From positions 1 to 45,041 of the IMG/VR virus record IMGVR_UViG_3300032893_000096: a stretch of DNA of 45,041 bases. One strand, 5' to 3'. This DNA is from a virus. Positions 12,126 through 39,837 of this stretch are shown in pieces. Made by a program: the position numbers and the translations under genes. Each line of letters starts with the position of its first letter. Position 1 is the first letter of the stretch. Below the pieces are notes generated by a model that made no database searches, was not told the origin of the DNA, and was given only the letters and a program-made list of their open reading frames with translations.

Positions 12126-12156
12126 TAAGTGGGAGCCCTTCAGGAATGAAGGCTTG

Positions 12157-12193
12157 AGCCCTGGGAGAGACTTAGACTCTCTCAGGGCTTTTT
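12157..12193 (+). terminator. Rho-independent terminator after capsid gene
   Basis: AGCCCTGGGAGAG (12157-12169), 7-nt loop, CTCTCTCAGGGCT (12177-12189), followed by a T run to 12193. The 13-bp stem contains one G-T pair. It lies 32 nt after the capsid stop and just before the SD of the next connector gene, so it probably lets capsid transcripts exceed tail transcripts by partial termination. Confidence 0.85.
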
Positions 12194-12208: not shown

Positions 12209-12643
12209 GTGGCTTACACAAATCCAAGTGTTCAAGACTTTAAGGATTATTTCTTCAGAGATTTTCCTTACGGGACTGACATTGAAACAACGGTAACGGA
12301 CCCTGACATTGCCAAGGCATTTCAGCAGACCAACATCAGTATTAACCCTGGTTTGTGGTCAAGCCAAGGTAACTACACCACTGCGTATTTGCTTTTAAGC
12401 GCGCACAACCTCGTAATGAACCTTCGCACAAGTTCGCAAGGTCTCAACGGGCAGTTTGCCTTTTTAGAGCAAAGCAAGAGTGTTGGTTCAGTGAGCGCAA
12501 GCTTTGCCATCCCGCAACGGATGGTAGATAACCCAGAATTCTCGATTTATATGAAGACAAACTACGGCGCGCAATACTTTCAGTTGCTTCTGCCAAATTT
12601 GTCTGGGCAAGTATTTTTTGTACATGGGAGAACGTTGCCTTGA
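12209..12643 (+). CDS. Head-tail connector protein (DUF4054-like)
   Basis: 144 aa, GTG start with SD AAGAGG. The pattern SVQDFKDYFFRDFPYG near the N-terminus and DIAKAFQQTNISINPGLW, followed by AYLLLSAHNLVMNL, matches the DUF4054 (gp6-like adaptor) family that binds under the portal. It overlaps the next gene by 4 nt. Its place directly after the capsid gene agrees with an adaptor role. Confidence 0.75.
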   Translation: MAYTNPSVQDFKDYFFRDFPYGTDIETTVTDPDIAKAFQQTNISINPGLWSSQGNYTTAYLLLSAHNLVMNLRTSSQGLNGQFAFLEQSKSVGSVSASFAIPQRMVDNPEFSIYMKTNYGAQYFQLLLPNLSGQVFFVHGRTLP

Positions 12644-13110
12644 GTGACGATAACGAGTTTGACACCAAGAATCTCGATAAGCTCATTCGCGCTTTGAAAA
12701 AGGGCGGGAACGCGGGCGTTAAAATCGGCATCATGGGTCAATCCGTTGCGCGCGAAGGTAGCGAATTAAACAATGCGACAATTGGCGCGTTCCACGAGTT
12801 TGGAACTTCTAAAATGCCGCAACGTTCGTTTTTGAAAATGCCTATTTCCGAGCATCTCGCTAAAGAGCTTGAGTCCTCGGGAGCATTCGACGAAGCGACG
12901 ATTAAAGAGGTCGTAAAGCAAGGAACGACAAGACCTTGGCTTGAGAAAGTCGCGATTTGTGCCGAAGCGGTCGTGCAAGACGCTTTTAACTCGGGTGGCT
13001 TTGGCAAGTGGGCACCCTCTGACATGGCACACAAAAAGAACCATCAAACTCTTGTTGAGACTCAGCAGTTACGGAATTCGATTACGACTAAGATTACGGG
13101 TGTAAGTTAA
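12640..13110 (+). CDS. Virion morphogenesis/tail completion protein (Mu gpG-like)
   Basis: 156 aa with a TTG start overlapping the previous TGA. The segment NATIGAFHEFGTSKMPQRSFL is characteristic of phage virion morphogenesis proteins (Mu gpG and HK97 gp10-like families), and KWAPSDMAHKKNHQTLVETQQLRNSI near the C-terminus matches the usual ending (L..T..LR.SI). Its role would be neck or tail-joining. Good length match. Confidence 0.8.
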   Translation: MSDDNEFDTKNLDKLIRALKKGGNAGVKIGIMGQSVAREGSELNNATIGAFHEFGTSKMPQRSFLKMPISEHLAKELESSGAFDEATIKEVVKQGTTRPWLEKVAICAEAVVQDAFNSGGFGKWAPSDMAHKKNHQTLVETQQLRNSITTKITGVS

Positions 13111-32115: not shown

Positions 32116-34122
32116 CTATTTTTTATAGCGCGGACCCTCCCACCCTTCGACTTGAACGGGACAGCCAGTAGCCCAAGGCGGCAGTTCCGCCATGAGGCGG
32201 CAGAACTCTTGATTAGAGCCACCTCCAAATATATCACGTTCCGCGAGCAGTTCGTCGTGTACGCTTAGGACTATCTCCCAGGGTCCCGCGGCTTCAATCC
32301 GAAGCATCGCGGCAGCCATAAGGTCGCGCGCAATCGCCTGCACTACGTTTTCGACCAGCGTGCCGCCCCAGGTCTTTTGCTCGCACCACTGTTTCGTATA
32401 GCTATCAATCCCGTAGTGATAGATGGCTTTAACCCGCTGCTTGTACTTATTTACGACCATGCGGACAGAGGGTTGGTGATAAGCGAGGCGGCGACCGCTC
32501 GGGAGTTCGCACCAAAGGAAACCGCCGCGGACCCACCAAGAGACGTAGTTTAGGGTGTACTTTTTACCTGGGTTCTCGATTGCCGCCATAGCTGCTAATT
32601 CATAGTTTTTCCACAACTTAACCACAGGGCTATGAGCATCGCGGTAGGCATAAACGGCGGCCGCGCTTAAGTCTGGTCCAATCTCTTGCCCTAAGTTAAG
32701 GCAAGTCTCTTCAAAGCGGTCGACACCCATGCCATAGCCGCAACCTAAAATCGCGGTCTTACCTAGCCACCGTTGGTCCTTAGTGACGTTCTCGACGTGG
32801 TTGACGTTATAGATTCGCTGAGCCATCTCTTTGTAAAGGTCGCGCCCTTCGCGGAATGCCTTAAGACCCTCTTCGTGCTTAGCGACCCAGAACAAGACGC
32901 GCGCTTCAATCGCGGCGTAATCGGCAACGTCTAGGACCTTACCGGGAGGGGCGACAATCATGCCGCGAAGACAGCTTGAGAAAGCCTGCATTGGCTCGCC
33001 GTAGATCATTCGCACAAGTTCAAGGTCGCCTAAGGCTAAAATCTCGCACGCTTTGATTGGGTCTTTTATCGTCCCACGAGGAAAGTTTTGAGGTTGAACG
33101 CGCACTCCGCCCCAGCGTCCAGTAGAGGCGGCATGATAGAGCAACATGTCGCGAAGGCGTCCGTCGGTACGCGAGCACTCCTCAAATACGGGATACTTCG
33201 CTGTTGAGGACATCGAGATGGCTTGTCGGTACTCCAGTAATTCTTTAGCTTTGCCAGTTACAAGACCGTTCTTTACGGCATCGTCGACGGTTTTCTTCTG
33301 CAAATCCGGTAGGAACACGCCCTCGTCTTGGAGGAAACTAAGAACGGCGTCACGTTGCCTTGCGCTCCTAAGCGCACCGTTGGTGAGTTCTGCAGTCTGC
33401 TGATTAATAAAATCGGTCTCGGTCTCAATCATGTCGAGCACTGTGTTAACGAGCGGGCGGTCGACTTCAAAGCCTCGAAGGTTAATTTTCTGGTCAAGTA
33501 TCCATACTTCGCGTTCAGTTGGATGTAGCGGCGGCGTTGCAAGAAACAATTCAACTTCAGCGGCAACGTCGCGCTTACAGTACTCAACAATTCGCTGTAA
33601 CTCAGCCGGGTCAGAGTGACGTGTGCTCGGGTCTTTTTTAGACGGTCTCTTTGGCTTACACCACTTGAGTATTAAGCGCCTACCCTCCATGTCTTTTTGA
33701 ACAGGTAAACGTAACACTTGTGCAGCACCTTCTAGGTTTCTAGGCAGCGCAAGTGCAGCGGCTTGAGACGCGGTACAAATCCAACGCTTAGGAGAAGTGG
33801 CGACACCAAAGCGTGTGTATTTTGGTAAGCAGTTAAGAGAAATGCATTGCTCAAAAAACGCGTTGTGCGCTACCAGCATCACGTTGTGGCGTAGCATCTG
33901 CTCAAGTAGAATGTCGATTGTTCCAATATTTTTATATTCACTAGGTACCCATGAGCAAGTTTTGGCGGTTCTCAACTGCTCACGCGTACCGATTCGCCAT
34001 GCTGCACAAATAATCTCAGTGCTTGGATGCATTGAGTATTCGTAAGCGCCAACATCTTTTAAGTTAGCTTCGCTGTAAGTTTCATAATCAATGCAGCAGA
34101 AAATTTGGTTCTTATCGTACAC
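32116..34122 (-). CDS. polA: DNA polymerase I-type (family A) with 3'-5' exonuclease
   Basis: 668 aa, GTG start overlapping the HNH gene by 11 nt. 3'-5' exonuclease motifs: IDYETYSEA (D12, E14), AHNAFFE (85-91) and YCKRD (181-185). Polymerase motif A is LDVADYAAIEAR (397-408; D398, D401); motif B RWLGKTAILGCGYGMG (451-466; R451, K455, Y463); motif C VHDE (621-624; H622, D623). The position matching E. coli Phe762 is Leu459. No 5'-3' exonuclease domain. It replicates phage DNA with the primase-helicase and SSB. Confidence 0.95.
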   Translation of the reverse strand: MYDKNQIFCCIDYETYSEANLKDVGAYEYSMHPSTEIICAAWRIGTREQLRTAKTCSWVPSEYKNIGTIDILLEQMLRHNVMLVAHNAFFEQCISLNCLPKYTRFGVATSPKRWICTASQAAALALPRNLEGAAQVLRLPVQKDMEGRRLILKWCKPKRPSKKDPSTRHSDPAELQRIVEYCKRDVAAEVELFLATPPLHPTEREVWILDQKINLRGFEVDRPLVNTVLDMIETETDFINQQTAELTNGALRSARQRDAVLSFLQDEGVFLPDLQKKTVDDAVKNGLVTGKAKELLEYRQAISMSSTAKYPVFEECSRTDGRLRDMLLYHAASTGRWGGVRVQPQNFPRGTIKDPIKACEILALGDLELVRMIYGEPMQAFSSCLRGMIVAPPGKVLDVADYAAIEARVLFWVAKHEEGLKAFREGRDLYKEMAQRIYNVNHVENVTKDQRWLGKTAILGCGYGMGVDRFEETCLNLGQEIGPDLSAAAVYAYRDAHSPVVKLWKNYELAAMAAIENPGKKYTLNYVSWWVRGGFLWCELPSGRRLAYHQPSVRMVVNKYKQRVKAIYHYGIDSYTKQWCEQKTWGGTLVENVVQAIARDLMAAAMLRIEAAGPWEIVLSVHDELLAERDIFGGGSNQEFCRLMAELPPWATGCPVQVEGWEGPRYKK

Positions 34123-34555
34123 GGTAACATTCCCGGCAAACCCGTTGAAATTTTCCGTTTTTACGTTTCTGAATTCTTAGATTTTCACCGATTAAAATAT
34201 GACCTCGTATACAATGAGTTTTTCGTGCGTGAATCGCGCTAGGACTATTACCGCGTAAAACATTTTCTTTATGAGTTACCGGCTCTAAATGTTTTGGATT
34301 TACACAATTTCGATTCTTACAAAGGTGATCTAGTTCTAAGCCTTTTGCGATTTTCCCGTGAGCTAAAGTATAAGAGACTACATGTGCTGTTAAAGCTTTT
34401 CCGTACCAGAGTAATGTGCCATATCCTGTGTTATTTTTACTCCTAGTCCAGAACCAGCAATTTTTAGTTTTCTCTACGCCGAGCCAAAACCAGTCAGTTT
34501 CCGGTATATCCGAAATCCGCGAACGCTTTTTTAATTGCTCAGGTTTCAACTTCAT
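34112..34555 (-). CDS. Free-standing HNH endonuclease
   Basis: 147 aa. N-terminal NCWFWTRSKNNTGYGTLLWYG, then the HNH core LELDHLCKNRNCVNPKHLEPV (DH, N, H) with Cys-based zinc ligands, and a second zinc-like C-terminal region (HCIRGHILIGEN ... RVCRECY). This is a typical phage homing nuclease of the HNH_3 type. It ends inside the polA start, an ideal place to spread with, or exploit, a conserved gene. Homing activity is inferred. Confidence 0.82.
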   Translation of the reverse strand: MKLKPEQLKKRSRISDIPETDWFWLGVEKTKNCWFWTRSKNNTGYGTLLWYGKALTAHVVSYTLAHGKIAKGLELDHLCKNRNCVNPKHLEPVTHKENVLRGNSPSAIHARKTHCIRGHILIGENLRIQKRKNGKFQRVCRECYRVR

Positions 34556-34746
34556 GGACGAATCTCAATTACATCCGGGTCAACCCAGCTTGGGAGAGGT
34601 TTGCAGCATTGAACCGGCACATGCACAAGTTCGTCGCTACCGTCGTATCTTTTCCAAAACGAACAACCGTAAAGCAAAATATCACGATGGTAAACTTCGT
34701 AGTCACCCTGTTTCAAAAGTTGCCAGACTAATTCTTCGTTACTCAT
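34552..34746 (-). CDS. Small hypothetical protein
   Basis: 64 aa from ATG 34746 (GTG at 34752 also in frame). It overlaps the HNH gene by 4 nt and the upstream gene by 8 nt. The sequence MSNEELVWQLLKQGDYEVYH, with CC and a final VDPDVIEIRP, resembles phage-encoded small proteins ending in a beta strand. Function unknown. Confidence 0.5.
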   Translation of the reverse strand: MSNEELVWQLLKQGDYEVYHRDILLYGCSFWKRYDGSDELVHVPVQCCKPLPSWVDPDVIEIRP

Positions 34747-34954
34747 CGTCACGTTTGATACCTAACAGTCGCTCAATCCTGTCAAGCCGCATAAGTAGAA
34801 CCGCTAAGAAAGCTTCGTTCGGATGAATAGTGAGAGGCTGAGGGTGCAGTTGATGTTTTATCGCAAATGCTTGCAGGTGCGCTTTGACTGGCTCTTGCAT
34901 CTCGCCAAACAGTTTTCTTGCTAGGTCGACATTCGTAAAATCAAGCGCCTTCAT
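34739..34954 (-). CDS. Small helical hypothetical protein
   Basis: 71 aa from ATG 34954 (SD-like GGTGG); upstream in-frame codons run through the preceding gene and are rejected. Helical, ending in LLMRLDRIERLLGIKRDDE. It overlaps both neighbours, as usual in this operon. Not recognised. Confidence 0.5.
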   Translation of the reverse strand: MKALDFTNVDLARKLFGEMQEPVKAHLQAFAIKHQLHPQPLTIHPNEAFLAVLLMRLDRIERLLGIKRDDE

Positions 34955-35270
34955 TTTTATCCACCAACTCGAATAGATGCCAAACCATAGGACCTTGTTG
35001 TGCGGTCCCGATGTAACGCATTGGTTGTTGCTCCAAAGACTCCATTTGCCAGCCAGTGCCGTAGATGCGAAAGCGGCGGAGTTCCATTTCAAGCGACGGG
35101 TCGCAGTATACCCACATACACAGCGTGAAACCCTGGTCTTGGAATGCTAAGACCCGCGAGCCCTTATGCAGTTGAATGTAGTTGGTGTCGCTCTTCTCAA
35201 GTGGGTACTTGAAAATTGTCAGACTACCACCACGAGTTTCCGCGTCTTTGCTTGTTGTAGCAGTTTCCAT
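34941..35270 (-). CDS. DUF7352-like protein
   Basis: 109 aa, ATG 35270. Contains FKYPLEKSDTNYIQLHKGSR, LAFQDQGFTLCMWVYCDP, RRFRIYGTGW and YIGTAQQGPMVWHLFEL, a beta-rich pattern frequent in small phage proteins known as DUF7352. Biological role unknown. It overlaps the upstream gene by 47 nt in another frame, one of the larger overlaps in this operon. Confidence 0.6.
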   Translation of the reverse strand: METATTSKDAETRGGSLTIFKYPLEKSDTNYIQLHKGSRVLAFQDQGFTLCMWVYCDPSLEMELRRFRIYGTGWQMESLEQQPMRYIGTAQQGPMVWHLFELVDKNEGA

Positions 35271-35673
35271 AAAACTTCTCCAAAGCCTTTAGCTGTTTGT
35301 CGGTTAATGTTCCGCGTTTGTTAAAATATTCTTCAAGCGATTCGATGAACTCAAGCGCGTCGCCTTCGACTTCGTTTAAGCATAAGTCAAGCATCGCGCG
35401 AATCTTTTCACGAGCACTATTACAATACTCTTCAAATGGGTCGCCAGCCGTACTATAAGAATACCCGCGTGATTCTTTTGGGTCTGTTGCCCGTGGTTCT
35501 TCTCGCGGGCGTTTCATTTCGGATTTCACGCCAAAGAACGAACGCCAATCTAGGTTATGCGAGGCGAGCATTTTGTTAGCTGTTCTAAGTGCTAGCAATG
35601 CTTCATTGTCGTTAGTCGAACCCGATAAACAAAGTAGGTTTAAGAGGCGCTCGATTTCTTTTTGATTGAGCAC
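35224..35673 (-). CDS. DUF2786-like hypothetical protein
   Basis: 149 aa, GTG start at 35673. N-terminal RLLNLLCLSGSTNDNEALLA, then LRTANKMLASHNLDW, matching the 'AL..A..ML..H.L' pattern of DUF2786-type domains; the rest is helical with an acidic middle. Its C-terminus (KQRRGNSWW) is overprinted by the next gene's start. Function unknown. Confidence 0.6.
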   Translation of the reverse strand: MLNQKEIERLLNLLCLSGSTNDNEALLALRTANKMLASHNLDWRSFFGVKSEMKRPREEPRATDPKESRGYSYSTAGDPFEEYCNSAREKIRAMLDLCLNEVEGDALEFIESLEEYFNKRGTLTDKQLKALEKFYGNCYNKQRRGNSWW

Positions 35674-35907
35674 CTATACCTCGCGTAACCATGGTTCCCG
35701 TATCCAGGTGCCATCGTAGCGGTAACAAAACCGTGGCAGACCTAAAATAGCGTCGAACACTTTAACGTAGCAACGGTCGCAGATTACCCGCGCGTAATCA
35801 TTTTGAGTCCCGACGTTTGGTGTATTATTAATCGGAACGCCGACAGCACCGTTTTCCGCGCACTCGACATCACGGCCACCACAGTAGCTACACAGATGCT
35901 TTATCAC
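35674..35907 (-). CDS. Small zinc-finger-like protein
   Basis: 77 aa from GTG 35907 with GAGG 5 nt upstream (ATG 35928 is possible but lacks an SD). It has CSYCGG and CDRCY pairs about 40 residues apart, likely a zinc site, and an aromatic C-terminus (YDGTWIREPW). Part of the run of small genes between SSB and polA. Function unknown. Confidence 0.5.
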   Translation of the reverse strand: MIKHLCSYCGGRDVECAENGAVGVPINNTPNVGTQNDYARVICDRCYVKVFDAILGLPRFCYRYDGTWIREPWLREV

Positions 35908-36223
35908 AGGTTCCTCGCTTGATAGCATTACGAAGTTCAACGTCGGTTTGGTTTGGCAATCGCTGGGTGTTGAAATGCTTAGCAATCGTATCGAGTTCTT
36001 CGCCGCTGGCTGCATCAATCTGCTCGTCCCGTAAGATGTCCATGAGTTGTTTTGGTACTTGTTTTGCAAACCAAAGCAAGGCATCAGGTGGCTCACCGTA
36101 AATCTGTTTGTACTTTAAGAAGCCATTGGTAATCGCTTGGATTACTTGCGCGTGGCTGATGCACTTTTGGTTTAAGATGTCGTCCAGAATTTTCGGCAAC
36201 TTGATGTTCTGCAACTGTTCCAT
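35888..36223 (-). CDS. Helical hypothetical protein
   Basis: 111 aa, ATG 36223 after GAAGG. Helical N-terminus (QNIKLPKILDDILNQKCISH), then ALLWFAKQVPKQLMDIL. The segment SGEELDTIAKHFNTQRLP followed by TDVELRNAIKR resembles the 'G..LD.iA...g..R...~D.e.R..I' repeat common in baseplate proteins, yet this gene is in the replication operon. Function unknown. Confidence 0.55.
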   Translation of the reverse strand: MEQLQNIKLPKILDDILNQKCISHAQVIQAITNGFLKYKQIYGEPPDALLWFAKQVPKQLMDILRDEQIDAASGEELDTIAKHFNTQRLPNQTDVELRNAIKRGTCDKASV

Positions 36224-36891
36224 TAAAACACCTTCATATAGTGACTGCTGATTACAAAAATAAGATTCTCACCCATACGACAATAAAGAGTATAGCCTTT
36301 TTTATAGAGCATCTCAGCCATACGTTTAGTATCGTCACGACGTGTTTCAACCACGATTAGCATTGGTCGTGAAGTTGAGAAGTCGGCGTTTTCAAGCACC
36401 ACGTAGTCAAGCCCTTCGATGTCGATGCTGAGTAGCGGCGGGAAAGTGCCGTTGCAGTTGAATTGAACTATGTCGTTAAGGCGTACGACTGGCAGCGACA
36501 TGTGGTCGCGCACTTGCATCACACCTTCAAGTCTTTTGGTCTCTTCATTGCTAAACGTGTTGCGACCACTAGTCTGGTCGTACATGTTAAAAATTTGCGT
36601 GCCCGTCTCCACACCAATACCAAGGTTTATATTAGTGTCGCGCGGTCGTTCCAAGTTAAACAGCGCAATAAGATTCGGGTTCGCCTCAACATTAACGCCG
36701 TGATAGCCACGCTCGTACAGCAGTTTGGTGTTGCTGATGTTAGACGGGTGATGAGCACCTACATCAATCCAAGCAAGCGTTTGGTTGCTGATGTTTAGCA
36801 TCACAAATAGATTACACAACATGAGGTCTTCGCCATGTTGCGAGTAGGTCAAACAGCCGAAGTGCTGGTCGGGATGTCCGCTATAACTCAT
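36223..36891 (-). CDS. FkbM-family methyltransferase
   Basis: 222 aa. The FkbM pattern is clear: YSQHGEDLMLCNLF, AWIDVGAHHPSNISNTKLLY (SAM-binding DVGA), VNVEANPNLIALF, LLSIDIEGLDYVVLENADF and PMLIVVE. Family members methylate small molecules, sugars or glycans. With the glycosyltransferase-like gene at 25.6 kb, it may modify surface glycans or nucleotides (inference). It overlaps both neighbours by 1-4 nt, so it is an integral part of the operon. Confidence 0.8.
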   Translation of the reverse strand: MSYSGHPDQHFGCLTYSQHGEDLMLCNLFVMLNISNQTLAWIDVGAHHPSNISNTKLLYERGYHGVNVEANPNLIALFNLERPRDTNINLGIGVETGTQIFNMYDQTSGRNTFSNEETKRLEGVMQVRDHMSLPVVRLNDIVQFNCNGTFPPLLSIDIEGLDYVVLENADFSTSRPMLIVVETRRDDTKRMAEMLYKKGYTLYCRMGENLIFVISSHYMKVF

Positions 36892-37280
36892 CGTCTTTGT
36901 AGCCTCATGTTGAATCTAGAACTGCTGAACGGGTGCATGCTGCTATCAGCAATTATTTCAAATATATTGTTCATGTACTCTAATTCGTCGATACCGTACC
37001 AAGCGTTATGGTCAGGAGCTTTCTTATCAAATTTTTCTATCGAAAAACTCCACTGGTGTTCATCGTGTGTCTGAGACGTGTTCAAATTAACTTCTGTTAC
37101 GACGCAAATAGTGCCTGTCTTTTTAATTCGACAAACGTCGTAAGGTTGAAAAGGAGGGATAGGATTTATTACTGGGTACACTATTTCAAACTCCGTACAA
37201 GTCTGTCGCATGCTGGGCATACCATATACACGGCGCGACCACGCTCCCTCATCGGGATTGGATGGCGACCTAACCAGCAT
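36888..37280 (-). CDS. Hypothetical protein downstream of structured RNA
   Basis: 130 aa if started at ATG 37280; Met codons at residues 21 and 24 could also be starts, and none has a strong SD. Beta-rich: FEIVYPVINPIPPFQPYDVC, TICVVTEVNLNTSQTHDEHQ, ending in MNNIFEII. An SH3-like barrel is possible. It is the first protein gene after the tRNA and structured RNA, in transcriptional order. Function unknown. Confidence 0.55.
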   Translation of the reverse strand: MLVRSPSNPDEGAWSRRVYGMPSMRQTCTEFEIVYPVINPIPPFQPYDVCRIKKTGTICVVTEVNLNTSQTHDEHQWSFSIEKFDKKAPDHNAWYGIDELEYMNNIFEIIADSSMHPFSSSRFNMRLQRR

Positions 37281-37312
37281 AAAATTTTGTAAAGCAACTT
37301 CATTAAACCTCT

Positions 37313-37444
37313 AAAAAGCCGCGACGCCCTACCGGGAGCAATAGCCGAGAACCGTCGTTCCCGTTTAGAACCCGAAGGCTCAAGCTAAGGCTGTACCCGG
37401 TAGCAGCGTCACTTGAACGTAGCGTAACAGTTTCGTCAAACTGT
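37313..37444 (-). ncRNA. Highly structured small RNA candidate next to tRNA
   Basis: No ORF explains this stretch. Read on the minus strand: hairpin ACAGTTT-GACG-AAACTGT (37444-37427), then an outer stem whose arms are 37410-37396 and 37336-37323 (CGCTGCTACCGGG-like with CCCGGTAGGGCG, few unpaired bases), enclosing AGCC/GGCT, a GAGCC-TTCG-GGTTC tetraloop hairpin and a GGGAAC-GACG-GTTCTC hairpin. A GCGGC-TTTTT run (to 37313) follows, like a terminator end. It lies directly 3' of a tRNA. No known RNA family recognised. Confidence 0.55.
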
Positions 37445-37468
37445 CTTGCATCCTACGCCCCTATCTCG

Positions 37469-37540
37469 TTGCGCTGGGTTGAATTGAACAACCGACCTAA
37501 AGCTTATGAAGCCCTCGCTCTACCACTGAGCTACAGCACA
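37469..37540 (-). tRNA. tRNA with CAT anticodon (Met or Ile2)
   Basis: 72 nt, cloverleaf complete on the minus strand: acceptor TGTGCTG/CAGCGCA (one G-T pair), D-stem GCTC/GAGC with loop AGTGGTA, anticodon stem AGGGC/GCTTT with loop TTCATAA, variable loop AGGTC, T-stem GGTTG/CAACC with loop TTCAATT, discriminator A. No encoded CCA. The anticodon stem has no GGG/CCC pairs, so it is not an initiator type; elongator Met versus lysidine-modified Ile cannot be decided by eye. It begins 7 nt after the SSB stop. Confidence 0.9.
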
Positions 37541-37547
37541 AAATACT

Positions 37548-38192
37548 TCAGAACCCCATACTCGCGTCAGCGCCAGCTTCATAGTTCGCCGCATTCTCTG
37601 AAGTATCTTCGACTGAATCGTACATCGAGAAAGCTTCAGCCGCGTCTTGACGACCGCTAAACGGTTCGCCTTCGGCAACCTTTTGAATGTTTTGCAATGC
37701 GAAGCCGATGCCTTTGTTACCAGCGGTGTCGTAAGTGAAGGCAATGATTTCCGCGCGGCAATAGCAGCCAGCGTAAAATACTGTCTCAACATCCGTTAAC
37801 ACTTTGCGACGTGCCGCATCGACCATGCCGGGTTGCTTCTTAGACGAAGCGCGAATGTAATAGTGACCAGCATAACCGTCGCGCTCCGCTTTGGTGTCTC
37901 CGTCACGCCAAGGCTTCTTATAGTTCTTAGGCCACTTAGAAGTATCAGCGCCCCATGATGCAACGCCCGCGTTGAATGCGATTTGATGCATCGAATACTT
38001 TTGCTTATCGGCTGGCTTTTTCAAGTCAACGTCTTTAGCAATCAGCATCTCAATGCTGTACTTAGGTTCGCTGTTATTAAAACTTTTAGCCTCGTGCAGT
38101 TGAGGGAAACTCAATCTAAAGACTGGGGTAATACATTTGACCTTTTCAAAATCAACCTTGCCACCCTGCTTCTGTGCTTGTACCGCTGCCAT
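37548..38192 (-). CDS. ssDNA-binding protein (Enc34/DUF2815-like)
   Basis: 214 aa, very strong SD (AAGGAGG). DUF2815/Enc34-type pattern: VDFEKVKCITPVFRLSFPQL, PKYSIEMLIAKD, GYAGHYYIRASSKKQPGMVD and VFYAGCYCRAEIIAFTYD, GIGFALQNIQKVAEGEPF, with an acidic C-terminal tail ending in MGF. It protects single-stranded DNA during replication; the acidic tail likely recruits partners. Located between the tRNA and the nuclease gene. Confidence 0.85.
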   Translation of the reverse strand: MAAVQAQKQGGKVDFEKVKCITPVFRLSFPQLHEAKSFNNSEPKYSIEMLIAKDVDLKKPADKQKYSMHQIAFNAGVASWGADTSKWPKNYKKPWRDGDTKAERDGYAGHYYIRASSKKQPGMVDAARRKVLTDVETVFYAGCYCRAEIIAFTYDTAGNKGIGFALQNIQKVAEGEPFSGRQDAAEAFSMYDSVEDTSENAANYEAGADASMGF

Positions 38193-38205: not shown

Positions 38206-38457
38206 TTAAGGGTTAATGGACTTTTTTGGCTTCAAATAGCGTCGTTCTAAAAACTCGAATGAATCTAAAATAATTTCGATTTGATTCTTACCGATTTTTG
38301 TATCATCATGGATAAGAGCAACTAAGAGTTTACGGGTTACGCGGCTTTTCTCGAATCGTGCCATAGCTTTAGAAATCTCTTCAATCTGCTGAGCGATTAT
38401 TTCTGCTCCCACCTCTTCTCCAGTCTCCTTGTCGATTACACGCAATGTCTTTTTCAT
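38206..38457 (-). CDS. Small helical protein upstream of SSB
   Basis: 83 aa, ATG 38457 after GGAG; overlaps the nuclease gene by 4 nt. It starts MKKTLRVIDKETGEEVGAEI (beta strand with DKETGEE turn), then helices with KNQIEIILDSFEFLERRYL. Probably a replication accessory factor by position. Not recognised. Confidence 0.55.
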   Translation of the reverse strand: MKKTLRVIDKETGEEVGAEIIAQQIEEISKAMARFEKSRVTRKLLVALIHDDTKIGKNQIEIILDSFEFLERRYLKPKKSINP

Positions 38458-39623
38458 GGCAACTCCGGAAATACATTCTCAACCGGTATCACCGCTTGGC
38501 GCTTATCGCTTGACGGTACCAGCGTTGTTCCACTGCTTTCTTTAGTCGTGTTCTTTGCGACAAAATCTTTGTCACCTATCGTGTCTTCAAACTGTTTGGG
38601 CGAGAGAAGCTTTGGTTGTGTGAACGCTTTCATGTTCCAACGCTTTAACGCTTCTTGAATCACTTCATCGGAGTTGACCCATTTTCTAACCGAACGCTTT
38701 TGCACGAGCTTATAGCCATCAATCTCGTGACCCTTTGACAACATCTCGACAGCAAGCTTACGGTACGATTCAATCCAAGCCTCGATTTTGTCGCATGCCG
38801 CAAGTCCGCGTCCTGTTGGTATCAACTCAGGTTTGGGCAACGAGATTAGACCGGCGTCGTCGTTGAAAACAATTTGCGCTTCGTCCATAGCGCGCTCTTT
38901 TAGTTCCGGGCAAATCACTGCCGCGGGACAGAAGCGACACCAATTGCCTGCAGCGTAAGTAACTTCTTTAGCTTTGCAATGTGCAACGCCGTCTTTAAAC
39001 TTTTGCTCCCATTCGTATAGCTTCTCGATTGGAAACACCGCGCTACGAACCGTCTCGCCCGATTCATGGTAAGCGCGTGGTTGGATAACAACTAACTCTA
39101 CTTCACTGAAATTGAAGTCGTATAGATTAGCAATGCCAAGTGCGTAATAAGCAAGCTGAGAATTACAGTCATCATTGTACGACGGCTCAACCGCAAGACC
39201 GGAGCCATACTTATAATCAATAACGGTGAGACGGCCAAAATGTCTAACGATAGCAGCATCCAACGTCCCGAACATGTCAGGCTCAATGTAGTCAAGTCGC
39301 ACCTCGGTTTCGCATAGTAATTCTTCGCCTTCGCCAACGCGGTCGGTAATCCAATAGACGGCATCAAGCGCGTACTCAACCATGTCTAAAGGATACTTCT
39401 TAAGCGCCATACGCTTAGCGGCAGCGAGTTGATTCTCGTTTTTTAGGAGAAGTTCTAAACATTCGTGCGCTTGTGTGCCCTCCTTAGCGTATTCACTATC
39501 CGGACGGTCTGGCGCACTTTCAGAAAGTACCATACTACCAGGGCAGTTAAGCCAACGGTCTGAGCCGCTTGCGCTAAACTTGGCATGTTTCTTCTCCGCG
39601 CTCGTGTTGGTGTCAAGTGCCAC
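38454..39623 (-). CDS. RecB/Cas4-like exonuclease (DUF2800)
   Basis: 389 aa from GTG 39623, which follows CGGAG by 8 nt; TTG 39656 is a longer in-frame alternative. N-terminal SASGSDRWLNCPGSMVLSES and KEGTQAHECLELLL, then the nuclease core FGTLDAAIVRHFGRLTVIDY followed by KYGSG (D...DxK), and a late cysteine cluster CRFCPAAVICPEL that with the early Cys may hold an Fe-S cluster. This is the DUF2800 PD-(D/E)XK architecture. Typical of phage recombination/replication modules next to an Enc34-type SSB. Confidence 0.85.
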   Translation of the reverse strand: MALDTNTSAEKKHAKFSASGSDRWLNCPGSMVLSESAPDRPDSEYAKEGTQAHECLELLLKNENQLAAAKRMALKKYPLDMVEYALDAVYWITDRVGEGEELLCETEVRLDYIEPDMFGTLDAAIVRHFGRLTVIDYKYGSGLAVEPSYNDDCNSQLAYYALGIANLYDFNFSEVELVVIQPRAYHESGETVRSAVFPIEKLYEWEQKFKDGVAHCKAKEVTYAAGNWCRFCPAAVICPELKERAMDEAQIVFNDDAGLISLPKPELIPTGRGLAACDKIEAWIESYRKLAVEMLSKGHEIDGYKLVQKRSVRKWVNSDEVIQEALKRWNMKAFTQPKLLSPKQFEDTIGDKDFVAKNTTKESSGTTLVPSSDKRQAVIPVENVFPELP

Positions 39624-39837
39624 TTTGTTGCTCCGGCATTGTAACTTTGACTGCAAAAGTTATTGGGTCTACGTCGATTCGTATTTGCGACATGATTGCG
39701 TTTAGCCCGTTAGAAACTAAATCGTGAATCTCTTTTCCAATAGAACTCCAAATTATATTGCGAATTCTGTTGTCGGCAGCTTCTCGAATGCGAACAGCTA
39801 AAACTTTTGCTAAGTCTTGGATTGGAACTTCACTCAC
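39613..39837 (-). CDS. Small hypothetical protein
   Basis: 74 aa, GTG 39837 overlapping the upstream stop by 4 nt. Helical front (DLAKVLAVRIREAADNRIRN) and a beta end (QIRIDVDPITFAVKVTMPE). It overlaps the nuclease gene by 11 nt. No domain recognised. Confidence 0.55.
   Translation of the reverse strand: MSEVPIQDLAKVLAVRIREAADNRIRNIIWSSIGKEIHDLVSNGLNAIMSQIRIDVDPITFAVKVTMPEQQSGT

Follow-up and report, generated by a model that had tools for sequence, protein, structure and literature searches.

The DNA analysed here, referred to as the window, is a 45,041-base virus record from IMG/VR (IMGVR_UViG_3300032893_000096), taken at its full length. On its minus strand, an exonuclease-like gene (38454-39656) and orf83 are followed by a gene for a Gp2.5-like ssDNA-binding protein (SSB; 37548-38192; phrog_112, E 3e-45), by a tRNA gene with the anticodon CAU (37469-37540) and, directly 3' of this tRNA, by a highly folded stretch. 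Past the folded stretch lie a 40-codon ORF (37181-37303), a 130-codon ORF, an FkbM-like methyltransferase gene, more ORFs, an HNH gene and the DNA polymerase gene (32116-34122), which was named from its relatives. The order of SSB gene, tRNA, folded stretch and a further gene had been noticed in the initial annotation, which gave no strand; all of it is seen on the minus strand. The tRNA gene is the only one of this phage genome. It was called as tRNA-Met by ARAGORN, which places its end at 37468, and it matches Rfam RF00005 with 62.3 bits. Judged from its sequence, no CCA is encoded after A73 (37469), and the first stem of the folded stretch begins 9 nt past this residue. From strand and spacing, it is plausible that the SSB gene, the tRNA and the folded stretch are co-transcribed.

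SSB and polymerase genes are close to each other in relatives. L005, whose polymerase was the closest one found (48%), has its SSB gene 14 bases ahead of the polymerase gene, and in other relatives it lies within about 1 kb of it. In the window, about 3.4 kb (34123-37547) separate the two genes, with an accessory content of tRNA, folded RNA, small orphan ORFs, FkbM methyltransferase and HNH endonuclease. The folded stretch sits at the start of this segment, which is missing from the relatives at that place, and none of eight relative records gave a tRNA match.

Folded as the minus strand, positions 37313-37444 reach a minimum free energy (MFE) of -57.8 kcal/mol, compared with a mean of -40.1 for shuffled sequences (z -5.18), and none of 200 shuffles folds as well; when the flanks are included (37281-37467), z is -4.48. 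When both strands of the whole window were covered by 4492 tiles of 132 nt, the lowest energy belonged to a tile over the folded stretch. A coarser scan by z (1382 tiles, 25 shuffles each) ranked one of its tiles third-lowest; one of the two tiles below it overlaps a clear terminator after a capsid-like gene, and several other tiles of the window also have z below -4. The stretch had been chosen beforehand for its look, and its lowest-energy tile together with its strong z largely vindicates this choice by eye, although z alone does not set the stretch apart from all others. The minus-strand fold is real and unusually stable, in agreement with what had first been claimed for it.

The fold might also act at the level of DNA, as a single-strand origin, a recombination site or an insertion scar in a region of replication genes, with which the strong inverted arms beside the SSB gene and the position at the start of a segment that relatives lack there would agree. 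We regard this as very improbable, since G-U pairs give the minus strand a far more stable RNA fold than the plus strand has (-69.1 versus -48.4 over the same 164 nt; on the plus strand, a similar stretch has z -3.16), a count that is itself favoured by folding that strand. Furthermore, the orientation is the same as that of the tRNA, and the 45,041-base record holds no second copy of the stretch.

The structured unit is better bounded as 37460-37313 on the minus strand and consists of two domains and a U5 tail. It had been taken to cover about 130 nt (37313-37444); this part is indeed structured, but the unit starts at about 37460 with an additional 8-bp stem. This stem (37460-37453 paired with 37415-37422; pair probabilities 0.79-0.97) surrounds hairpin 1 and forms domain I with it (37415-37460). 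Hairpin 1 (37427-37444), earlier described as 7 bp around a GACG loop, is present and has 8 bp if a G-U pair is included (pair probabilities 0.95-1.0). Domain II (37321-37412; pair probabilities 0.95-1.0) corresponds to the long interrupted outer stem that had been seen by eye, with helices of 7 and 8 bp (37412-37406/37321-37327 and 37403-37396/37329-37336) and then of 3 and 4 bp (37392-37390/37337-37339 and 37387-37384/37342-37345). The apical part of domain II (37346-37381) has two competing folds. In form A, a UUCG hairpin (37381-37368, CC(UUCG)GG) and a second GACG hairpin (37363-37346) make up a three-way junction, and form B is a single extended hairpin. The two hairpins of form A, both of which belonged to the original description, are found in the MFE structures of 37313-37444 and of 37281-37467, yet their helix probability is about 0.18 in the 155-nt ensemble, where form B is the MFE. 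In these models, the outer stem and hairpin 1 are predicted to be robust, in contrast to the UUCG hairpin and the second GACG hairpin.

The initial annotation had further suggested that the identical GACG loops are protein- or RNA-binding elements, a proposal that the analysis does not support. There are 119 hairpins with at least 7 bp and a 4-nt loop in the window, three of which have a GACG loop, two of them in the folded stretch. GACG is not self-complementary, and these loops would thus be unable to kiss each other. The repeated loops are suggestive at most.

At the 3' end, the outer stem is followed by GGC, the U5 tract (37313-37317) and an A, and then by an SD-like AGAGG that belongs to the 40-codon ORF. 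This end had been read as a GC stem with a T-run. The sequence GGC-UUUUU is there, but GGC separates the outer stem from U5, and a simple consensus terminator scan did not flag the U5 tract and its stem. Pairing that reaches the U-tract is present in the MFE structure of 37313-37444, but the ensemble computed for the longer RNA lacks it. Elsewhere in the window, the capsid-like gene is followed by a textbook intrinsic terminator (12155-12193, plus strand), a perfect hairpin of 14 bp and U5, and its U5-A tail is the same as that of the folded stretch.

With a very stable, GC-rich stem and such a tail, the folded stretch could be a large intrinsic (Rho-independent) terminator or a 3' stabiliser that merely ends the SSB-tRNA transcript, with no independent RNA being made. 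This seems to us unlikely, if still worth serious consideration. In an intrinsic terminator, a GC stem stands 0-2 nt ahead of the U-tract. Here the pairing extends to the U-tract in one fold, while the outer stem is offset from it by 3 nt. The scan did not flag the site, and the extra 5' domain (domain I) and the 92-nt body exceed a terminator's needs.

The stretch had also been described as free of ORFs. None of at least 40 aa overlaps it, but there is a possible 23-codon ATG ORF inside it (MQDSLTKLLRYVQVTLLPGTALA; 37380-37451, minus strand), which has an SD-like AGGGG upstream and scores 0.07 bits per codon. In addition, a 49-codon minus frame without stops runs over the stretch, and its TAA overlaps the next ATG. 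The codon scores of both lie between the coding and the off-frame distributions, and a small peptide may be made from the folded stretch. The 49-codon frame, with its intermediate score and overlapping TAA, would fit a chance fold of GC-rich or decayed coding sequence, as would the other tiles with z below -4 and the fact that no conservation was seen. We nevertheless consider such an origin improbable, given that no shuffle folded as well and no tile had a lower energy, that the first half of the frame contains no ATG, GTG or TTG, and that no relatives of the 49-aa frame were found in phages.

Rather unlikely, too, is a function as a cis-acting leader of the 40-codon ORF, exerting riboswitch- or attenuator-like control of translation or read-through, with the 23-codon ORF possibly serving as a leader peptide. 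Consistent with this, the SD-like AGAGG of the 40-codon ORF (37312-37308) begins directly after the U5 tract, a hairpin (37322-37294) spans its AUG in the longer fold, and an SD-like site and an ATG lie within domain I. However, no homologue, family or coding signal was found for the 40-codon ORF, and the Rfam cis-regulatory families gave no match to the folded stretch above chance.

A match to a known RNA family had been named as what would speak against the RNA being new. At gathering as well as at lax thresholds, Rfam returned only tRNA matches at the locus. On another viral contig (L037, IMGVR_UViG_3300021420_000021), we came across an apparent permuted tmRNA at 12559-12943 on the plus strand, which scores 52.7 bits against Rfam RF04321 (cut-off 47) and is called by ARAGORN as tmRNA* with the tag ANTNVKAMSASAGA.

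Phages, plasmids, viral contigs and genomes were searched by DNA, by pattern and by model, and no homologue of the folded stretch was found. Blastn with the folded RNA against phages and plasmids gave just short chance matches within coding genes. Matches to degenerate outer-stem patterns were no more numerous than expected by chance according to a rough estimate, and every match to degenerate hairpin 1 patterns fell inside an open frame; in genomes, neither these patterns nor those for the paired apical loops had a match. A pattern for the anticodon arm of the tRNA gave no match. Two candidates were rejected, namely a perfect outer stem in L111 (8420-8507), which lies within a short ORF next to a capsid-like gene and has no tRNA, and a hairpin 1 match over 22 nt in L151, which lies inside a long open frame. 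A covariance model search had been proposed as a check. The model, built from the single sequence and containing 49 pairs, found the window itself only, both among 43 sources that included SSB and polymerase relatives and in 21 whole records, which left no homologous structures to compare for covariation. A polymerase query against genomes yielded no confirmed relative. Because near records may be missing from the sequences searched, because some of the relatives are fragments, and because a model of one sequence reaches close relatives only, the absence of homologues is weak evidence.

Theta ribozymes, which are HDV-like, are found at the 3' ends of phage tRNAs (PMC10879173), and the folded stretch shares with them its place directly after a phage tRNA without an encoded CCA. 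This identity is unsupported. No HDV family matched in Rfam even with E values as high as 10 allowed, and the only two sites that fit a permissive HDV-like descriptor are 37554, which is upstream of the tRNA, and 37311, which is beyond the folded RNA; the HDV double pseudoknot with cleavage at most 5 nt from the tRNA 3' end and a catalytic C in J4/2, by which a theta ribozyme is recognised, was not found. A hammerhead ribozyme (CUGANGA ... GAAA core) is likewise unsupported, as CTGANGA is absent from both strands of 37250-37620. Nor is there support for a degenerate tRNA or a coding remnant, two further identities considered for the stretch.

As a positional precedent, bacteriophage T4 is better than the theta ribozymes. 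Its rnaD (species 2, 119 nt) and rnaC (species 1, 139 nt) are annotated small stable RNAs directly after tRNA-Arg, and the folded stretch resembles them in size and in lying on the same strand as, and directly 3' of, a phage tRNA. The T4 RNAs close a multi-tRNA cluster, whereas there is one tRNA here, and rnaC has a T-arm-like CCGGGUUCGAAUCCCGG that is missing from the folded stretch. No match in sequence or structure was found between them, the best unfiltered model score being a fragmentary 6.7 bits (E 0.28). The fold of rnaC has a z of -4.57, near that of the folded stretch, while rnaD (z -0.83) folds no better than chance, and strong folding is hence not diagnostic of this kind of RNA. Both T4 RNAs also lack an Rfam family, so that the silence of Rfam is no sign of a new class. 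Indeed, the new class of phage ncRNA suggested by the initial annotation is not borne out, since the searches gave no second example, a class needs more than one sequence, and the same arrangement exists in T4. To our knowledge, the role of tRNA-linked phage RNAs like rnaC and rnaD is unsettled, and RNAs of this kind have been little studied. By analogy of arrangement, the folded stretch might work as they do.

We tentatively favour, at somewhat less than an even chance, an orphan, single-copy structured RNA that is co-transcribed with and linked to the tRNA, and that has a closed stem and a U-tract which would form or shield the 3' end of the transcript. The folded RNA would be transcribed from the minus strand as a continuation of the SSB-tRNA message, and the maturation cut of the tRNA at or near A73, with no CCA after it, would set it free. 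The remaining RNA of about 150 nt might then be shielded from decay by its two closed domains, and the strong stem of domain II with GGC-UUUUU would form the 3' end. This end could act as a leaky terminator or a processing block between the SSB gene, with the replication genes, and the downstream accessory genes and polymerase. What speaks against the tRNA-linked RNA that we favour is that the U-tract stands 3 nt away from the main stem and borders directly on the SD of the ORF that follows, which is unusual for a simple terminator. It appears quite improbable that an RNA freed by tRNA processing would act in trans on a host or phage target, as a small phage RNA from a family not yet described.

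If the folded stretch is not transcribed, it represents a strong terminator-like fold. If it is transcribed, it would be an unrelated addition to the tRNA-linked phage RNAs, of which rnaC and rnaD of T4 are examples, and it would mean that such RNAs can occupy an accessory insertion within a replication operon.
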